Source: Candidatus Saccharimonadota bacterium (lineage in GTDB: Bacteria > Patescibacteriota > Saccharimonadia > Saccharimonadales > Saccharimonadaceae). From it: a stretch of DNA of 47,963 bases. Location: NCBI GenBank assembly GCA_017514125.1, contig JAFWKW010000011.1:1-47963 (forward strand), given 5' to 3'. Position 1 is the first letter of the stretch. Each line of letters starts with the position of its first letter. Of this stretch, positions 5,217-47,963 are shown piece by piece. Position numbers and translations under genes: made by a program. The notes beneath the pieces are model-generated. The model was not told the DNA's origin and made no database searches. It saw nothing but the letters and a program-made list of their open reading frames with translations.

Positions 5217-6776
5217 ATGAAGAAGAAAACCGTGGTTATTGTGGGTGCGGGCCCAGCAGGTTTGACTGCAGCATACGAACTTTTGGATAAATCAAAAGAT
5301 TTTGATGTGGTGGTTTTGGAAGAATCTGACAAGATTGGGGGGATTTCTCGGACGGTGAATTATAAAGGGAACCGGATGGACATGGGGGGACATAGGTTTT
5401 TCTCCAAAGTACCAGAAGTGAACAAATGGTGGGAAAAAATGATGCCAACCCAAGGATCTTTGCCGTATGACGATAAAGTCTTGGGGCGTAAATCTAATGT
5501 AAAGAAGGGTGGACCGGATCCAGAAAAAACCGACAGAGTGATGCTCAGGCGCAATCGTTTATCGAGAATCTTTTTTAACCAAAAATTCTTTGATTATCCA
5601 GTATCTTTGAAAGCCTCTACGATTAAAAATATGGGCGTGGGGACGACTTTTGTAGTGGGTTGTAGCTATATGAAGAGTGCCGTCCACAAAAAACCGGAAA
5701 AGTCTTTGGAGGATTTTTATATCAATCGATTTGGTAAGAAGCTTTATTCGATGTTTTTTGAAAATTATACCGAGAATTTGTGGGGGAGGCATCCGAGGGA
5801 CATTTCGCCTGAATGGGGCGCTCAGCGAGTGAAGGGACTATCGATTTCGGCAATATTGAAGGATATTTTTGGGAAGACTTTTAAAAAGAAGAATCGTAAA
5901 GTAGAAACATCTTTGATTGAAGAATTTGCTTATCCAAAACTTGGTCCAGGGCAACTTTGGGAACTTACCGCAAAAGAAGTGAAGAAAAAAGGTGGTGAAA
6001 TCATTATGGGGGCTAAGGTGATTGGCGTAAAAAAGAATGCTGAGGATGTGTTGACTGGTGTGGTGTATGAAAAAGATGGTAAGAAGGTGACGCTCAAAGG
6101 TGACTACGTGATTTCTTCTATGCCGATTAAAGATTTGGTGGCGGCAATGAATGATGTGCCCACTAAGTATGCGAAGATTGCGGCAGGGTTACCTTATAGA
6201 GATTATATGACGGTGGGGGTGCTTTCTCATAAGTTGGCGTTAAAGAATGAAACAGATATCAAAACAATTGGAAATATTGTGCCAGATAACTGGGTGTATG
6301 TACATGATAAGAGCGTACAAATGGGGAGATTCCAGATTTATAATAACTGGTCGCCATATCTTGTAAAAGATGTCGAAAATACGGTATGGGTAGGATTGGA
6401 ATACTTTTGTAATGAAGGGGATAAACTTTGGTCAATGACTGATGATGATTTTGCGAAGATGGCAATTGATGAAATGGTAAAAATAAATGTCTTGGATAAT
6501 AAGGATGAAGTAATGGACTATCATGTGGAACGTGTGAAAAAGGCTTATCCGGCGTATTTTGATACTTATGAAAAAATTGACGATCTCCGTGCTTATCTAG
6601 ATAAAATCCCAAATCTTTTCTGTGTAGGGAGAAATGGTCAGCATAGGTATAACAATTTGGATCACTCGATGTGTACTTCTTTTGAGACAGTAAAAAATAT
6701 TATGAATGGGGTGACCGATAAGTCGAATATTTGGGAGGTAAATACGGAGAAGGAATATCATGAAGAAGGTAAATAA
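5217..6776 (+). CDS. FAD-dependent oxidoreductase / UDP-galactopyranose mutase-like flavoprotein
   Basis: The 519-aa protein begins with a Rossmann dinucleotide-binding motif ([17 protein letters not shown]) and continues with an acidic residue of the FAD ribose site ([11 protein letters not shown]). The [11 protein letters not shown] segment is typical of the NAD(P)/FAD amine-oxidase-like proteins found in polysaccharide loci and distantly related to UDP-galactopyranose mutase. A C-terminal FAD-contact region ([19 protein letters not shown]) completes the fold. The reaction is not certain: ring contraction of a nucleotide sugar or oxidation of a lipid-linked sugar both fit. It begins the plus-strand glycan run and overlaps the next gene by 17 bases. 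Confidence 0.72.
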
Positions 6777-8424
6777 ACTTAAAAACATCAGAAAAAGAGT
6801 TTGGATTAAATACGTGGTGTCGGCTATACTTGGCCTGTGTTCTAGTGTAGCTTATGATTATATTGAAAAAGGTGATTGTCATATTTCTCCTCTAGTTTTC
6901 GTGAGGGCAGGGATTTTGTTTGGCTTGTATTTGGTTTTGTTCTATCTCGTGGAGGTTTTGTTGTCAAAAAAGGACGGCTCGAATAAATTTTTGAGGAACG
7001 GAAAAATTAAGTATTTATTTGGGAATAAAACTCCGTTTTGGAAACAGGCTCTGACTATTGCGGGGATTATTTTTGTAATGTGGTTACCATATTTTGCGGC
7101 TTCATATCCTGGTAATATGAGTAATGATACAACGGGTCAGTTGCCGATGTACTTTGCTATGTTTGACGATCAGAAGGAATATGAAATGCAGGACCAACAT
7201 CCAGTTTTCACGACGATGGTGTTTGGTTCGGTAGTCTATGTAGCGAACTTGATTTTTAACAATATGCATGCGGCTTTGGCGTTTTGTATTTTATTACAAA
7301 TGATGGTAACTGCGCTGGTGTTTGGTTTTGCAATTGTGTGGATGAAGAGAAGATGGAGGATTGCGACCTGGCTTTGTATTGGCATAATTGGATTTTTGAC
7401 GCTTTTTCCGTTGATGCCACTTATGGTGATTAGCCTGTCTAAGGATACCTTTTTTTCGTGGATTTATGTGTTATTTGTGATTGCTTTGTTTGAATTAGTG
7501 CGACAAGACTTTAGAATAATCAATAATAAAAAATATTTAGTAGGGCTAGTTTTGTTATGTCTTTTGATATGTTTGACTAAAAAATTGGGAGTATATATTG
7601 TATCGGGGACTTTGGTGCTATTTATATTATTTTGTAAGCAGCAGTGGAAAATACGACTAAAAATAGCAATACCGTTGGTGCTTTCGGCAGGATTAATGTT
7701 CATAATAATGCCAATAATTATTGCTAATACCGGAATTACTCCTACTCCTAAGAAAGAGATGTTTGGCTTGCCTTTTCAACAGACAGCGTTGACTTATATT
7801 AGGCATGGCGATAGTATGGCTGAAGATGAACTGACCCAGTTAGACAAATTGATGGATTTATCAACTTTGAAGGAGCGATATGTGCCGTATGTAGTAGATC
7901 CAGTGAAAGGACCAGTGAGCGATGATAATGATTTTGGTGCATATATTAAATTGTATATAAAGCAGTTTTTTAAATATCCGGATAGTTATATTGACGCTCT
8001 TGCTTTGCATGTGGCTGGAGTGTTTGTGCCGTATCAAATTTCTCCAATTTTTGATAACCATTGGCACACTTGGAACGGTGGCTATTTTGATGAGGATTTC
8101 TTTGATAAGCCAGATTTTAGTCGAGCACAATCTATTAAATTGCAAGAGTATTATGATTGGCTTACGGATACGCCGATTTTGAATTTGGGTGTGTTCTCGA
8201 TCACCTATGTGGTCTTTATTCCGGCTTGGTACCTTATTTGTTTAATAATGAGAGGGAAGAAAAAACGCGATTTGCTATTATTTGTACCGATATTAGCATC
8301 GTTGGTAGGATTAGCGTTGTCGGCTACAGTGTATGATGGAAATGAAGCAATGCGATACCTGATGCCTTTTGTATATAGTGCTCCTATACTGATAGCTTAC
8401 TCACAGTATTTACTCTATACATGA
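6760..8424 (+). CDS. DUF6020-like polytopic membrane protein
   Basis: This 554-aa protein has roughly ten to twelve hydrophobic segments. The extracellular loop after the third segment carries [18 protein letters not shown] followed by [13 protein letters not shown]. These are the landmarks I associate with the DUF6020 family and with the acidic loop of GT-C glycosyltransferases. A role in transferring sugars from a lipid carrier on the outer membrane face is therefore likely but inferred. Its start overlaps the flavoprotein gene by 17 bases, so it is cotranscribed. The charged N-terminus ([13 protein letters not shown]) supports an inside-positive orientation. Confidence 0.65.
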
Positions 8425-41919: not shown

Positions 41920-42816
41920 ATGAATCCACAACAGCAGATGCCACAACAGCAACCGATGATGCAGATGCCTGGTGGGCAGCCGATGCCGATACAACAGGCA
42001 CCTGGTGGACAGCAAATGACACAACAGCAGCCGATGCCGCAGCAACAATTGCCGCAGCAACAGCCTGGACAGCCGATGGTGCAAATGCCTAGTGCTCAGC
42101 CAGCGCCAATTTCGGTGTCTAAAGACAATCCTTCTTCGACTCAGGCGACTTTGATGATTTCGGAGCTTAGGGACAACATTGTGATTATGAAGGATGGGTC
42201 CTTTCGTGCGGTGGTAGCTTGTAAATCGATTAACTTTGATTTGATGAGCGATGTAGAAAGAGAGGCGGTGGAGTATTCGTATCAGAATTTTTTGAATTCA
42301 CTAGATTTTACTACGCAAATTATGGTGAGAAGTCAGAGAGTGGATATTGGGCCGTATCTTTCGCGTCTTACGGAAATTCGGCGAAATAACGACAATATGT
42401 TGCTCGGTGTATTGATGGATGACTACATCAACTTTATTGAGATTTTGTCACAAGAGGCTAATATTATGGATAAATCGTTCTTTATTGTGGTGCCGTATTA
42501 TAGCTCTCCGGATGAAGAAAAAAATCTTCAGCAAACGAAAAATTTCTTTAAGACTTTTTCGGGGGTGAAGGATTTGCCGATTACCAAGATTGATCGTCAG
42601 ACTTATGACAAGGCGATTACTGAGCTTACCAATAGAGTAGAAAGAGTGGTATCTGGGCTGTTTCAGATTGGGATTCATTCGGTGAGGTTAAATACAAGGG
42701 AACTTGCGCAACTTTATTATAACTTCAACAATCCAGATACGGCGGTGAGAGAGCCTTTGGTGGATTTCTCGGAAGTGGCGACGATGTATGTTAAAAAAGG
42801 AGAAAAGAATGGCTAG
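41920..42816 (+). CDS. TraC-like protein (VirB4 N-terminal-domain partner)
   Basis: The 298-aa protein begins with 60 residues of Gln/Pro/Met repeats (MQMPGGQPM and similar). A folded domain of about 230 residues follows (LRDNIVIMKDGSFRAVVACK onwards), resembling the N-terminal part of VirB4/TraC ATPases and containing no Walker motifs. It sits three bases after the PrgI gene and overlaps the VirB4 gene by 8 bases. The likely role is a structural partner of VirB4, as if the ATPase had been split into two genes. Confidence 0.75.
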   Translation: MNPQQQMPQQQPMMQMPGGQPMPIQQAPGGQQMTQQQPMPQQQLPQQQPGQPMVQMPSAQPAPISVSKDNPSSTQATLMISELRDNIVIMKDGSFRAVVACKSINFDLMSDVEREAVEYSYQNFLNSLDFTTQIMVRSQRVDIGPYLSRLTEIRRNNDNMLLGVLMDDYINFIEILSQEANIMDKSFFIVVPYYSSPDEEKNLQQTKNFFKTFSGVKDLPITKIDRQTYDKAITELTNRVERVVSGLFQIGIHSVRLNTRELAQLYYNFNNPDTAVREPLVDFSEVATMYVKKGEKNG

Positions 42817-44623
42817 GAAGAAGAAAAAAGGAAAGTTGTCTGCGGCGGAGATTGCGGCACAGGCTGAAGCATTGGAACTCGCAGAAATCCAAAAAGCCTT
42901 TGAACAAGGTACGAATACTCTACGCGATTTGATTTCGCCGTCGGCAATTGAGATTCATTCAGATTATTTTAGGCTGGGCACTAAGTATGGGCGGACGATT
43001 TATGTGTATGGTTATCCACGGACGCTTTTTACGGGGTGGATTTCGCCGATTATTAATATCGATGAAGTGATTGATGTATCGATGTACATTTATCCGGTAG
43101 AGTCAGCAGTGGTGATGAAAAATCTTCGAACTAAGGCGACGCAGCTTGAGGCATCGATGAACCTTAATACTGAGAAAGGTAAGATTAGGGATCCGGAGCT
43201 GGAGGCGGCGTTAGCTGATACTGAGGAATTACGTGATCAGTTACAGGTGGGGGCGGAGAGATTTTTCCGATTTGGGCTTTATGTGACGATTTGGGGTGAT
43301 TCATTAGAGGAACTGAAATTTGTTCAGCAGAAGATTGAAACGATTTTTGGACAACAGATGATTTTTTCTAAGGTGGCTAATTCGCAGCAGGAACAGGGGT
43401 TAAATTCTGCTATGCCACAGTGTACGGACCAGCTACAGATTCGACGGAATATGAATACTGGTGCTATCTCGACATCTTTCCCATTCACTTCGGCAGATCT
43501 TACGCAGGATAAGGGGATTTTGTATGGTATCAATATGCATAATAATGGCTTGGTGATTTTTGATAGATTTTCACTGGAAAATGCCAATATGGTGGTATTT
43601 GCGAAGTCTGGTGCTGGTAAATCGTTTACTGTGAAACTTGAGGCGCTTAGGTCGATGATGACGGGAGCAGAAGTGATTATCATCGACCCGGAGAACGAGT
43701 ATCAGAAACTTTCTGATGCGGTAGGCGGGTCTTATATTCGTTTGTCTCTCAACTCGGATGTGCGGGTGAACCCGTTTGATTTGCCAAAAATCGTGGATTC
43801 GGAGGATGCAAATGATGCGCTGAAGTCTAATCTAGTAACTCTGCACGGCCTGTTTAGGCTGATGCTTGGTGGGGTAGGGAATACTGGACAAGCGGCTTTG
43901 ACTCCGAATGAAGAAGCGGATCTTGATCAGGCTTTGATTGATACATATGCGCGGGCGGGGATTACTTCAGATCCTTTGACGCATCAATCGCCAGCGCCGA
44001 CGATTATAAATTTGTACGATACGTTGCTCCATATGGGTGGAAGTGGTCCGTCTTTGGCACAAAGACTTCGTAAATATACGACAGGGACTTTTGCGGGGAT
44101 TTTTTCGCAGCAGTCTAACATTGACATTAATAACCAGATGGTGGTGTTTAATATCCGTGATCTTGAGGATGAGTTGAGGCCGGTGGCGATGTATATTGTG
44201 CTTTCACATATTTGGAATATTGTGCGGGCAAATCAGAAGAAACGCTTGCTGGTGGTAGATGAGGCGTGGCAGTTGATGCAGTATGAAGATTCGGCGAATT
44301 TCTTGTTTTCTCTTGCGAAACGCGCACGTAAATATTATCTTGGTCTTACTACGATTACGCAGGACGTGGAAGATTTTATGGGTATGAAGATGGGACGGGC
44401 AATTGTGGCAAACTCGTCGATGCAGCTACTTTTGAAACAGTCGGCGTCGGCGGTAGATGTGCTGGCGGATGTATTTAAGCTTACCGAAGAAGAGAGAAGA
44501 AGGCTCGCAAACTTCCCGGTGGGACAAGGGCTATTCTTTGCCGGACAAAATCACGTACATATTCAGGTGATTGCGTCAGAAACCGAAGAACGGCTCATCA
44601 CTACTAACCCTAATCAAAAGTAA
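42809..44623 (+). CDS. virB4: VirB4-type secretion ATPase
   Basis: The start is ATG 42809 (MARKKKKGKL), with GGAG five bases upstream; an in-frame ATG at 42788 would add seven residues. The 604-aa ATPase has Walker A (AKSGAGKSF, 265-273) and Walker B (RLLVVDEAWQLM, about 479-490). The TTITQDVEDFMG segment that follows is typical of VirB4/TraE enzymes. The N-terminal 240 residues are the VirB4 docking domain. It powers assembly of the secretion channel and pilus on the cytoplasmic side. Confidence 0.93.
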   Translation: MARKKKKGKLSAAEIAAQAEALELAEIQKAFEQGTNTLRDLISPSAIEIHSDYFRLGTKYGRTIYVYGYPRTLFTGWISPIINIDEVIDVSMYIYPVESAVVMKNLRTKATQLEASMNLNTEKGKIRDPELEAALADTEELRDQLQVGAERFFRFGLYVTIWGDSLEELKFVQQKIETIFGQQMIFSKVANSQQEQGLNSAMPQCTDQLQIRRNMNTGAISTSFPFTSADLTQDKGILYGINMHNNGLVIFDRFSLENANMVVFAKSGAGKSFTVKLEALRSMMTGAEVIIIDPENEYQKLSDAVGGSYIRLSLNSDVRVNPFDLPKIVDSEDANDALKSNLVTLHGLFRLMLGGVGNTGQAALTPNEEADLDQALIDTYARAGITSDPLTHQSPAPTIINLYDTLLHMGGSGPSLAQRLRKYTTGTFAGIFSQQSNIDINNQMVVFNIRDLEDELRPVAMYIVLSHIWNIVRANQKKRLLVVDEAWQLMQYEDSANFLFSLAKRARKYYLGLTTITQDVEDFMGMKMGRAIVANSSMQLLLKQSASAVDVLADVFKLTEEERRRLANFPVGQGLFFAGQNHVHIQVIASETEERLITTNPNQK

Positions 44624-44633
44624 GAAAATATGT

Positions 44634-44639
44634 TATAAT
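44634..44639 (+). promoter_or_regulatory. -10 box of leaderless promoter for the hydrolase gene
   Basis: TATAAT ending 6 bases before ATG 44646, no ribosome site. Confidence 0.6.
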
Positions 44640-44645
44640 ATAGAT

Positions 44646-45905
44646 ATGAAACTGAAGGGTTTTTTGGTAGGTTTTATGGTGGTGTTTTTGACACTGCTAC
44701 CTTCGGGGGCTTTTGCGAAAAAACTGATTGATGAAGATTTGTTGTATTATTATGGGCTGAATGGGATTTATCATTATAATGGGGCGAAGGAGAAGTGTAC
44801 GGCGGAAGAAGGGGGAAATCAGAATTATGCGGGAGAGAGCGTATGGAGTGAGGCGGAACTTGAGGCAATTGGTGAAAATAAAGCGATTTACAAAGAAGCG
44901 GCGGATAAGTACGATTTTCCGTGGCAAGTTCTCGCTGTATTTCATAGTATGGAAACTGGTCTTAGACGCTATAACCCGGGGAATGGGCAGGGAGTTTATC
45001 AACTTTATTCGTATACAAACGGGGGGACTAATGAAAATGCGTTTACTCCTGGGCCGGTGGATGAGGCAGAGTTTAAAAGACAGACCATGATTGCGGCAGA
45101 AGTGATTAGTTCTTCGGTAGGAGATCTTAATGAATCAGACAATGTGAAGAAGCTATTTTTCAAGTTTAACGGGATGTCTTCGAAATATGTACAGAAGGCT
45201 TTGGAATTAGGGTTTTCAGAAGAGGAAGCTAAAAATGGGGAGGGGTCGCCTTATGTAATGAATCGGTATGATGCCAAGCGAGATCCGGGAAGTAGCGAGA
45301 TGGATGGCAATTGGCCGGGAAGGTACGTGAAAGATGGCGTGTATGATGCGGGGTCTACTTCTATGGTGTTTGGGGCGTTTGTAAAATATGAAGCTTTGGC
45401 TGGGAGTGTAAATTGTACGGATCACGGTGGTGATATAGTAGAAACGGCGCTTTTACTATCTTGGGATGGGCACGGACATAGCAAGGATGACCCAAAGCCG
45501 GAGTATGAAAAGGCGATGAAAGAGGTAGGGACGTATAGTAGTCCGTGTAGAAGTAGCGGAGATTGTGCGCCGAAGGGGGCATCTTGTGATGTTTTCGTAT
45601 CTACGGTGATGAGATATTCTGGTTCGGATCCGGATTTTCCAGTGTTTAGTCCGGCGGCACAAAAGAGTTATATGAAATCACATAGTGATAAATATGTAAA
45701 AATAGATGCTCACGATGTAAGTGATTTGCAGGCAGGTGATATTTTAGTGGCGGTAGATAATGGGAGACATATTTATTTGTATTTGGGTGATGGGATGCAG
45801 GCATCGGCGTCGTATAATGATCGGACGGGTGAACATTTTTCGGGAGTGTATTTGTCGGATAATGGGGGGTCGAGACATTATAGTGTATATAGGAGAACTA
45901 GTTAA
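44646..45905 (+). CDS. Secreted two-domain peptidoglycan hydrolase (lysozyme-like plus CHAP/NlpC-like)
   Basis: The start is ATG 44646, giving 419 aa. It has a signal peptide (LKGFLVGFMVVFLTLLPSGAFA, cleavage near residue 24). A lysozyme-like domain (75-250) has likely catalytic Glu103 in VFHSMETGL and the segment NPGNGQGVYQLYSY. A C-terminal cysteine-peptidase-like domain (295-419) has Cys314 in GASCDVFVST and His375 in NGRHIYLYLGDG, with LQAGDILVAV between. This matches VirB1-like lytic enzymes of Gram-positive conjugation systems, which open the wall for the secretion channel. It could also attack the wall of a partner or host cell. Confidence 0.85.
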   Translation: MKLKGFLVGFMVVFLTLLPSGAFAKKLIDEDLLYYYGLNGIYHYNGAKEKCTAEEGGNQNYAGESVWSEAELEAIGENKAIYKEAADKYDFPWQVLAVFHSMETGLRRYNPGNGQGVYQLYSYTNGGTNENAFTPGPVDEAEFKRQTMIAAEVISSSVGDLNESDNVKKLFFKFNGMSSKYVQKALELGFSEEEAKNGEGSPYVMNRYDAKRDPGSSEMDGNWPGRYVKDGVYDAGSTSMVFGAFVKYEALAGSVNCTDHGGDIVETALLLSWDGHGHSKDDPKPEYEKAMKEVGTYSSPCRSSGDCAPKGASCDVFVSTVMRYSGSDPDFPVFSPAAQKSYMKSHSDKYVKIDAHDVSDLQAGDILVAVDNGRHIYLYLGDGMQASASYNDRTGEHFSGVYLSDNGGSRHYSVYRRTS

Positions 45906-45980: not shown

Positions 45981-46913
45981 ATGGCGGAAAAGCGTGATTA
46001 CTATGAAGTTTTAGGCGTATCCAAGAATGCGTCGGATGATGAAATAAAAAAGGCTTATCGGAAATTAGCAATTAAATACCACCCGGATAAAAATCCTGGT
46101 AACAAAGAAGCTGAGGCGAAGTTTAAGGAGATTAATGAGGCACATGATGTATTGTCTGACAAACAGAAACGAGCTAGGTATGATCAATTTGGCCACGCGG
46201 GGGTAGGAGGGGCTGGTTTTGGTGGGGCTGGCAATCCGTTTGGCGGTGGAAATCCATTTGGGAGAGCTGGTGGGTTTAATTATAATGGGCAGACCTTTAA
46301 TTTTGAGTTTGGTAATGGGGGAGTGTTTGACGATATTATTGGCAATATTTTTGGGTTTGGAGCTGCTGGCGCGAGAAGGCCGAGGAGAGGAGCGGATTAT
46401 CAGGTAGCGGTGACTTTGACTTTTGAGGAAGCGATTTTTGGTTGTACGAAGACGGTAGATAATAATGGTTCGGACCTTAAGGTGAAGATTCCGGCGGGGA
46501 TTGATGATGGGATGTCTATACGCCTTCGTGGTAAAGGTGGGCCGGCACCGGAAGGCGGTTCTGAGCCGGGAGACCTCTATGTGAGAGTGCGGGTGAAGCC
46601 ACATAAATCACTCACGCGTGAGGGTGCGATTATTTTGTCTGAGCATACAATTGATATGGTAGATGCGGCACTGGGTTGTGAAATTGAAGTTCTGACCGTG
46701 GATGGGCCGGTGATTATGAAAGTGCCAGCAGGGACGCAAAGTGGGACGCCGTTTAAGCTATCCGGACACGGTGTGCCGTTCCGTGCGGATGGCGATAGAG
46801 GACCGCATATTGTGACGGTTTTAGTAGAAACGCCGAAGAATTTGTCGCGGAAGCAGAAGGAACTTCTAGAAGAGTTTAAGAAGGCGAAGAAGAAGGGGAT
46901 TTTTGGAAGGTAG
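45981..46913 (+). CDS. dnaJ: DnaJ-type co-chaperone, class B (no zinc finger)
   Basis: The J domain (1-70, with HPD at 34-36) stimulates DnaK. The Gly/Phe-rich linker follows ([20 protein letters not shown]). The substrate-binding domains (about 135-300) contain [15 protein letters not shown] and [19 protein letters not shown]. At 310 aa and with no CxxCxGxG repeats, this is the DnaJ class B/CbpA form, not the full DnaJ of 370-380 aa. A CIRCE operator points to co-regulation with groESL by HrcA. Confidence 0.9.
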
Positions 46914-47008
46914 GGGGGAGATTTTATCCATCTTTCACGAACGGTTGATTTTTGTATTTTGTTCGCATCCATCCCTTGATACATTAGTGGATATAAAAAG
47001 ACTAGACT

Positions 47009-47848
47009 TTAGGAGGCCTGGATACAGCGGATGTAGTTCCCACGGTTGCGGTTGTAGTTGCCAGTATATAAGACACTGGTATTGTAGTAAAGACTATACC
47101 GTAGCGCACTATTGGATGTTGTGCTGCCCCACCAGTAACCAGCCGTAGACTCAGCATGCAGCGCACCACCGTGATAATTTCCACCTATGACTGGAGAAAA
47201 ATTAGGAACATAAATACTACTACCACCAGTCTCGTCGCCACTGCCTCCACTCAAACTATCTATTTGTGCCTTACTTGGCAATGTCCAGCCTTTGGGGTTT
47301 GTCACCATCTTTGCTGTCATATCCTGCATATAGGTTAAGTCTGATACATCCTTTTCCTCACTAACACAGCGGATGTATAGGCCAGCATTACGACCATTAC
47401 CCTCATTATCAGTAGATAAACTACCATTGTAATCCAGACGGTATCGCAACGCACTATTTGATGCAATATCAACCCACCAGAGCCCGTGTGTAGAATCAGC
47501 GCCCAAGCTGCTATTATAGTACATCCCACCTAGGACTGGAGAAAAAATATCAATATCTGTATTGTTGTCCGCTTGTTTTTTAGTAGGTAAAGTCCATCCC
47601 TTAGGGCAAATACTCTCTGTAGCCACAGCAATATTATCTGTACCAGTTATAGTTCCGGCAGAGGCTAGAGCATAATTATACCATACAGTATTACCACTAG
47701 TATAACTATTTGATCCACTATGAATACAAGTATTAGTATACCCATCTCCGTTACCAGTTTCGGTGCTAGTAGTATATTTCCCATAGCACTCACCCCCGCT
47801 GGTGCCGCGTTTCTCTATCTGTCCCAAAGGCTGGACATTGCCTGCCAA
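47009..47848 (-). CDS. Fib_succ_major-type surface protein, headless at the inversion junction
   Basis: The protein has two repeats of the Fibrobacter succinogenes major paralogous type. Repeat 1 runs about 15-165 with SICPKGWTLPTKK and LYIRCVSEE, and repeat 2 runs about 172-279 with YMQDMTAKMVTN, PKGWTLPSKAQ and NYIRCIQAS. There is no proper start: the frame opens only at a TTG, and its first 15 or so residues are antisense to the plus-strand copy next door. The coding context of this family normally has a signal peptide and an extra N-terminal domain, both missing here. In repeat 2 about 60 residues expected between MVTN and PKGW are absent. Members are thought to be exported surface proteins. 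It may be a silent cassette, a pseudogene or one state of an invertible gene. Confidence 0.6.
   Translation of the reverse strand: MAGNVQPLGQIEKRGTSGGECYGKYTTSTETGNGDGYTNTCIHSGSNSYTSGNTVWYNYALASAGTITGTDNIAVATESICPKGWTLPTKKQADNNTDIDIFSPVLGGMYYNSSLGADSTHGLWWVDIASNSALRYRLDYNGSLSTDNEGNGRNAGLYIRCVSEEKDVSDLTYMQDMTAKMVTNPKGWTLPSKAQIDSLSGGSGDETGGSSIYVPNFSPVIGGNYHGGALHAESTAGYWWGSTTSNSALRYSLYYNTSVLYTGNYNRNRGNYIRCIQAS
47277..47296. repeat. Left copy of 20-bp perfect inverted repeat (partner 47823-47842)
   Basis: The 20 bases encode PKGWTLP on the minus strand. The partner at 47823-47842 is identical in opposite orientation, in the same codon phase. Similarity continues outward, more loosely, for about 35 bases on both sides. 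The enclosed segment is 526 bases. Confidence 0.9.
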
Positions 47849-47963
47849 AACACAGATAGACAGTCTAAGTGGAGGATCTAGTAGTACTGCGTATGTAAAT
47901 AGCTTTTCCCCAGTCCTGGGCGGGGATTACATCAATGGTACGCTGAACAGTGAGTCTACCGTC
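47787..47963 (+). pseudogene. Plus-strand Fib_succ_major fragment, open at right edge
   Basis: On the plus strand, after TAG 47784-47786, an open frame runs to the window end without a credible start. From 47814 it reads SICPKGWTLPAKTQIDSLSG, then continues with FSPVLGGDYINGTLNSEST, the same family as the minus-strand gene. Residues before SIC are antisense to that gene. So it is a headless or partial copy whose continuation lies outside the window. Confidence 0.6.
47823..47842. repeat. Right copy of 20-bp perfect inverted repeat (partner 47277-47296)
   Basis: Encodes PKGWTLP on the plus strand; identical in inverted orientation to 47277-47296. Confidence 0.9.

Follow-up and report, generated by a model that had tools for sequence, protein, structure and literature searches.

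The stretch of DNA analysed here (the window; 47,963 nt) is one whole contig, C30, of a 636,638-base metagenome bin that is 78.5% complete. By DnaJ (81–83% identity), the nearest named relatives are bins of Saccharibacteria that came from the gut of sheep and goats. At its right end, the window carries dnaJ followed by an array of Fib_succ_major sequences (Table 1), and its last 141 bases are the first 141 of another contig of the bin, C28. The 41920–45905 region upstream of dnaJ, which includes a gene for a TraG/VirB4-like ATPase (42788–44623) and a gene with no Pfam match (44571–45905), may be a secretion locus that includes a cell-wall hydrolase. The order of genes in this region is kept in several relatives.

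Table 1. Features of the array at the right end of contig C30 and of the adjacent gene
Feature	Position	Strand	Description
dnaJ	45981..46913	+	Directly upstream of the array; Pfam DnaJ and DnaJ_C; synteny
END edge of H30	46967..47038	-	Conserved 3′ edge, RCIQAS*, terminator-like tail; 39 genome copies
Unit H30	47009..47296	-	C-terminal half of Fib_succ_major domain 2, PKGWTLP...RCIQAS*
H30 variable region	47024..47194	-	NNY hypervariable codons
S edge, left copy	47277..47296	-	Exact 20-base repeat
Unit K30	47297..47822	-	Variable C-terminal half of Fib_succ_major domain 1
LK edge of K30	47303..47370	-	VSEEKDVSDLTYMQDMTAK; LK element, 28 copies
K30 variable region	47371..47545	-	
B edge of K30	47782..47822	-	EKRGTSGGECYG; core element, 29 copies
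Unit H28, start	47823..47963	+	Truncated at the contig end; same sequence as C28:1-141 and as C26:1-141 in reverse complement
S edge, right copy	47823..47842	+	First base is the point where C30 and C26 converge into C28

The minus-strand gene in the array (47009–47848) was identified as Fib_succ_major (Pfam, 3.7e-10), and both reading frames at the contig end were as described in the original prediction, which had drawn attention to two inverted copies of a 20-base sequence around a 526-base segment. The two copies are exact reverse complements, with the match stopping at 20 bases in both directions, and both encode PKGWTLP. The wider arms of the repeat span 53 nt with an 81% match. As had also been predicted, the segment between the copies has no credible start codon in either orientation. 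Across 200 shuffles of the last 4 kb, exact inverted repeats reached at most 17 bases, versus the 20 observed, and the 17-base core of the repeat has 42 exact occurrences in the 637-kb genome; together, these rule out a chance origin. A reversed control pattern of this core gave 0–2 matches genome-wide, even with two mismatches allowed, and the core is absent from 99 further genomes of the genus. Alignment of 40 copies revealed 19 invariant positions, including synonymous sites, and the flanking sequences were unrelated and sometimes wholly different.

When this repeat and three more repeated elements detected by counting 20-mers were mapped, two repeated units were delimited. Unit H (approximately 330 bp) extends from S, the 20-base repeat that forms its 5′ edge, to END and encodes PKGWTLP...RCIQAS* followed by a terminator-like tail. 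Unit K (approximately 490 bp) extends from B to LK and encodes EKRGTSGGECYG...SDLTYMQDMTAK. The genome has at least 35 copies of H and 27 of K, mostly intergenic and headless, and these dispersed copies are in frame with near-identical DNA edges. No stop or frameshift interrupts the frame of any full-length K or H copy. K30 is in frame with H30 but lacks the fixed N-terminal half of domain 2, which is retained in some headless copies on five other contigs (C1, C12, C18, C21 and C33). H28 runs on into C28, where its stop lies at about position 273.

Across 32 H copies, the edge codons (PKGWTL and RCIQAS) are nearly all identical, and codon usage is mixed at the conserved residues of the interior. 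This fixation of synonymous sites at the edges, but not in the interior, led to the rejection of a reading of the units as plain Fib_succ_major gene fragments under protein selection alone. The unit junctions are ragged by a few bases in a locus-specific way and no terminal inverted repeats were seen at them, making a precise transposase unlikely, and a transposon-like unit with its own precise ends was also discarded. There was no match that would link the units to viral contigs or plasmids. Three mini-H units (C7:154, C21:391 and C23:27457) have the S edge joined almost directly to END and lack the variable region.

A headed, full-length copy of the kind sought in the original prediction was found once, as the sole such gene in the assembly, and runs from C29 into C20 across a 141-base overlap. 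The C29 frame begins with a membrane-anchor-like (signal/membrane) N-terminus, followed by a weak match to the Listeria-Bacteroides repeat, the first, fixed half of one Fib_succ_major domain and then K. On C20, it continues through K and then, for a second Fib_succ_major domain, through the fixed first half and H. K and H each reproduce one of the two variable halves of this surface protein. The variable C-terminal domain matches Fib_succ_major/Lcl_C (C-lectin-type) by sequence; the AlphaFold model of domain 2 (pLDDT 44) was too poor for use. A search of GTDB contigs with the head fragment on C29 gave no confirmed relative. The assembled part of the genome therefore contains one headed gene and many headless partial copies that share sequence at their edges, as is found for silent cassettes, and the silent cassettes that the original prediction offered as an alternative are what the genome shows, with headless copies dispersed throughout.

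The interiors of the units vary in a distinctive way. In the H copies, 15 hypervariable columns vary almost freely at the first two codon positions and nearly always have a pyrimidine at the third (NNY), with entropies of 1.76, 1.51 and 0.80 bits at positions 1, 2 and 3, respectively, and 94% Y at position 3. The other variable columns (1.15, 1.14 and 1.34 bits) do not have the NNY pattern. When 21 K and H copies were compared, they shared one common background and differed mainly at 'nn' dinucleotides. Most variable regions were independent of one another rather than mosaic. The NNY pattern would be the trace expected of adenine-directed mutagenesis of AAY codons by a DGR. DGRs are common in CPR bacteria (PMC8144416), and Fib_succ_major and DUF1566 are among the domains known to be targeted by DGRs (PMC4159848).

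An RT domain was found in 95 of 170 genomes of the genus, often several per genome, and 20 RT loci in sister species were sampled for template/variable pairs and targets. Most had such a pair, in which most or all mismatches fall at adenines of the template, and the targets at the sampled loci end in a Fib_succ_major-like domain. The hypervariable columns, with codon positions 1 and 2 randomised and a pyrimidine fixed at position 3, fall at the AAY codons of each of the three sister-species templates that are closest (Fisher p=3.1e-9, 1.5e-8 and 1.3e-7). The pattern is that of a DGR, and the variety of the copies was probably made by one. In this assembly, no reverse transcriptase was detected at E<=0.01 and no template copy was found; as the assembly is 78.5% complete, both may be missing from it or may have been lost. 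DGRs are very common across the genus (G001–G173), with inverted template/variable pairs near the RTs, and examples are L145, L147–L149, L151, L155, L157, L158 and L161–L164.

The original prediction proposed a shufflon-like switch, in which a recombinase would invert K between two S repeats and join it to either neighbouring H. Shufflons of the R64 type have exact inverted repeats of about 20 bases inside the coding frame of the ends of a surface protein, and the array shares with them the short exact inverted repeats in frame. Inversion of the 526-base segment in silico carried it in frame into the right-hand module as far as ...YVRCIQAS*, with C28 supplying the remainder of that module. At nine loci, K lies between two exact inverted S edges as on C30, and its orientation varies among loci; other K copies are flanked by END on both sides or adjoin unrelated DNA. 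In addition, C29 begins at GCCCCAAAGG, a sequence common to both kinds of K–H junction. The inverted repeats and the preservation of frame in both orientations thus stood, and a switchable surface protein is plausible, but no recombinase is adjacent to the array and no core was found in both orientations among the contigs of the assembly. The recombinase gene whose presence had been anticipated was sought genome-wide, and the assembly contains no serine recombinase and two tyrosine recombinases (on C4 and C35), which are closest to XerC/D/A models and well away from any array. Furthermore, K lacks a head whichever way it lies, the conserved edges number four, of which S is only one, and, unlike the R64 shufflon, the units have no constant N-terminal partner and occupy about 20 separate loci. 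A recombinase-driven inversion of K is therefore considered improbable.

Comparison with relatives shows that the array is an insertion. In five relatives, dnaJ is followed, in some cases after a small gene, by a gene for a protein of approximately 519 residues, which here lies within C28 (1385–3259). Spacing after dnaJ is short with no array in L198, L200 and L201, and L196 and L197 have a longer spacer but no such array. Because the sister species have dnaJ next to the gene that follows the array here, the C30–C28 order is, by synteny, the native gene order, and the H30-K30-H28-K28 array (approximately 2.1 kb) is an addition to it.

The native order also bears on whether the copies could have been created by assembly, if a single active DGR gene that differs from cell to cell had been split into separate copies and these joined wrongly. 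The bin derives from a metagenome and many of its contigs end in units, with overlaps of 141 bases, and some of the copies could for this reason come from other strains. However, arrays are found inside contigs between unique flanks (C4, C10, C14, C23, C32, C34 and C35), the ragged junctions differ by locus, and the C30/C28 array has native flanks on both sides. It is very improbable that the copies are an artefact of this kind, and a chimeric assembly, raised in the original prediction, is unlikely to be the main cause given the unique flanks and the native order in five relatives.

Both C30 and C26 run into C28, and they diverge exactly at the inner edge of S. As the C30–C28 order is native, the C26 link is a second arrangement, present within the population or differing between strains, whose breakpoint falls in S or H28. 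At the repeat itself, this convergence is the single real pointer to recombination. Exchange is further suggested by tracts shared between C27/C32, C4/C23 and C23/C33 whose ends fall within units, and by the final 141 bases that C18 and C31 have in common. RecA matches in the genome were weak or cut by a contig end. On C32, an H-K-H array (5958–7645) separates a ClpA/C-like ATPase gene from a large peptidase gene, and in the relatives in which both of these genes were found they do not adjoin each other. This is suggestive of a rearrangement breakpoint, judged without a control for gene-order turnover. At array loci, it is mostly the 3′ ends of the neighbouring genes that face the arrays (24 of 34 by manual count).

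The units could also be an inert by-product, that is, dead duplicates of a DGR target that were spread by chance recombination and have no role in switching. The copies are headless, their junctions are ragged, the variable region is gone in the mini-H units, and no RT is present. The longest tracts that the expressed copy shares with silent copies outside the edges were 22 bases for K and 36 bases for H, so that in this one snapshot of an incomplete genome no donor was seen for the present expressed variant. However, the full-length copies are all without a stop or frameshift, about 60 copies are kept in a reduced genome, and the edges stay identical as the interiors diverge. We consider an inert origin rather unlikely.

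The reading that we favour, and judge to be probable, is that the units form a dispersed, mostly silent archive of DGR-made variants that could be reused by recombination through their shared edges. The presence of about 60 headless variants suggests that the bacterium stores variants of its surface protein for possible reshuffling. The system would operate in two steps, with variants generated by DGR mutation, stored and then reused. DGR mutation would generate the variants of the surface protein, and the K and H copies would constitute the largely silent archive. Homologous recombination via the shared edges (B and LK for K, S and END for H) may then move variants between arrays, and the same recombination could probably carry archived variants into the expressed gene. 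More tentatively, DGR-made variants may be banked as dozens of cassettes and replayed into the one surface protein, with rearrangement of the chromosome as a side effect.

The proposed archive shares features with several known systems. It has the same target domain as the DGRs of Patescibacteria/CPR, with a C-terminal variable region and NNY at template AAY positions (PMC8144416, PMC4159848), and sister species hold complete DGRs. The assembly differs in having some 60 copies, almost all headless and extragenic, and neither an RT nor a template. In Treponema denticola, DGR targets that are remote or left over have been described (PMC4891356); there, variable regions likewise occur far from the RT and targets are present in genomes that lack one. 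However, the T. denticola targets are few and are whole genes, not dozens of half-gene cassettes with shared DNA edges. Gene conversion from silent cassettes is known for vlsE (PMC2632889, PMC11499132). Both vlsE of Borrelia and pilE/pilS of Neisseria likewise include one full-length gene and many promoterless, in-frame partial copies, with conserved edges around variable interiors. Unlike those, the copies described here carry a DGR signature and are scattered in both directions, and gene conversion among them is putative.

In the open-access literature, we found no published case of a DGR joined with a silent cassette archive, and none in Saccharibacteria. DGRs and antigenic variation by silent cassettes are each known separately. 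For Patescibacteriota, antigenic variation appears only as speculation in a 2024 paper (PMC11809585). Were the archive in use, it would illustrate how so small and host-dependent a bacterium preserves a memory of mutated binding proteins, perhaps to serve attachment to changing hosts. It would also offer a reason for the rearrangement and the poor assembly of such genomes.

Further repeats and related genes were noted. A terminator-like palindrome, AACAACAAAATAGATTTTTTAATAG, recurs with its partner near END or LK edges on C4, C7, C9, C14, C23, C26 and C34, and a second short repeat, AAGCCTAGGCGGTTTAGAATTAA, follows END on C23, C28, C35 and C36. Giant frames of 2,777 and 3,661 residues that match a Fib_succ_major-type domain were found in sister species (G132:C3, approximately 65300–72400, and G047:C1, near 252700), with a dozen matches in the G132 frame.
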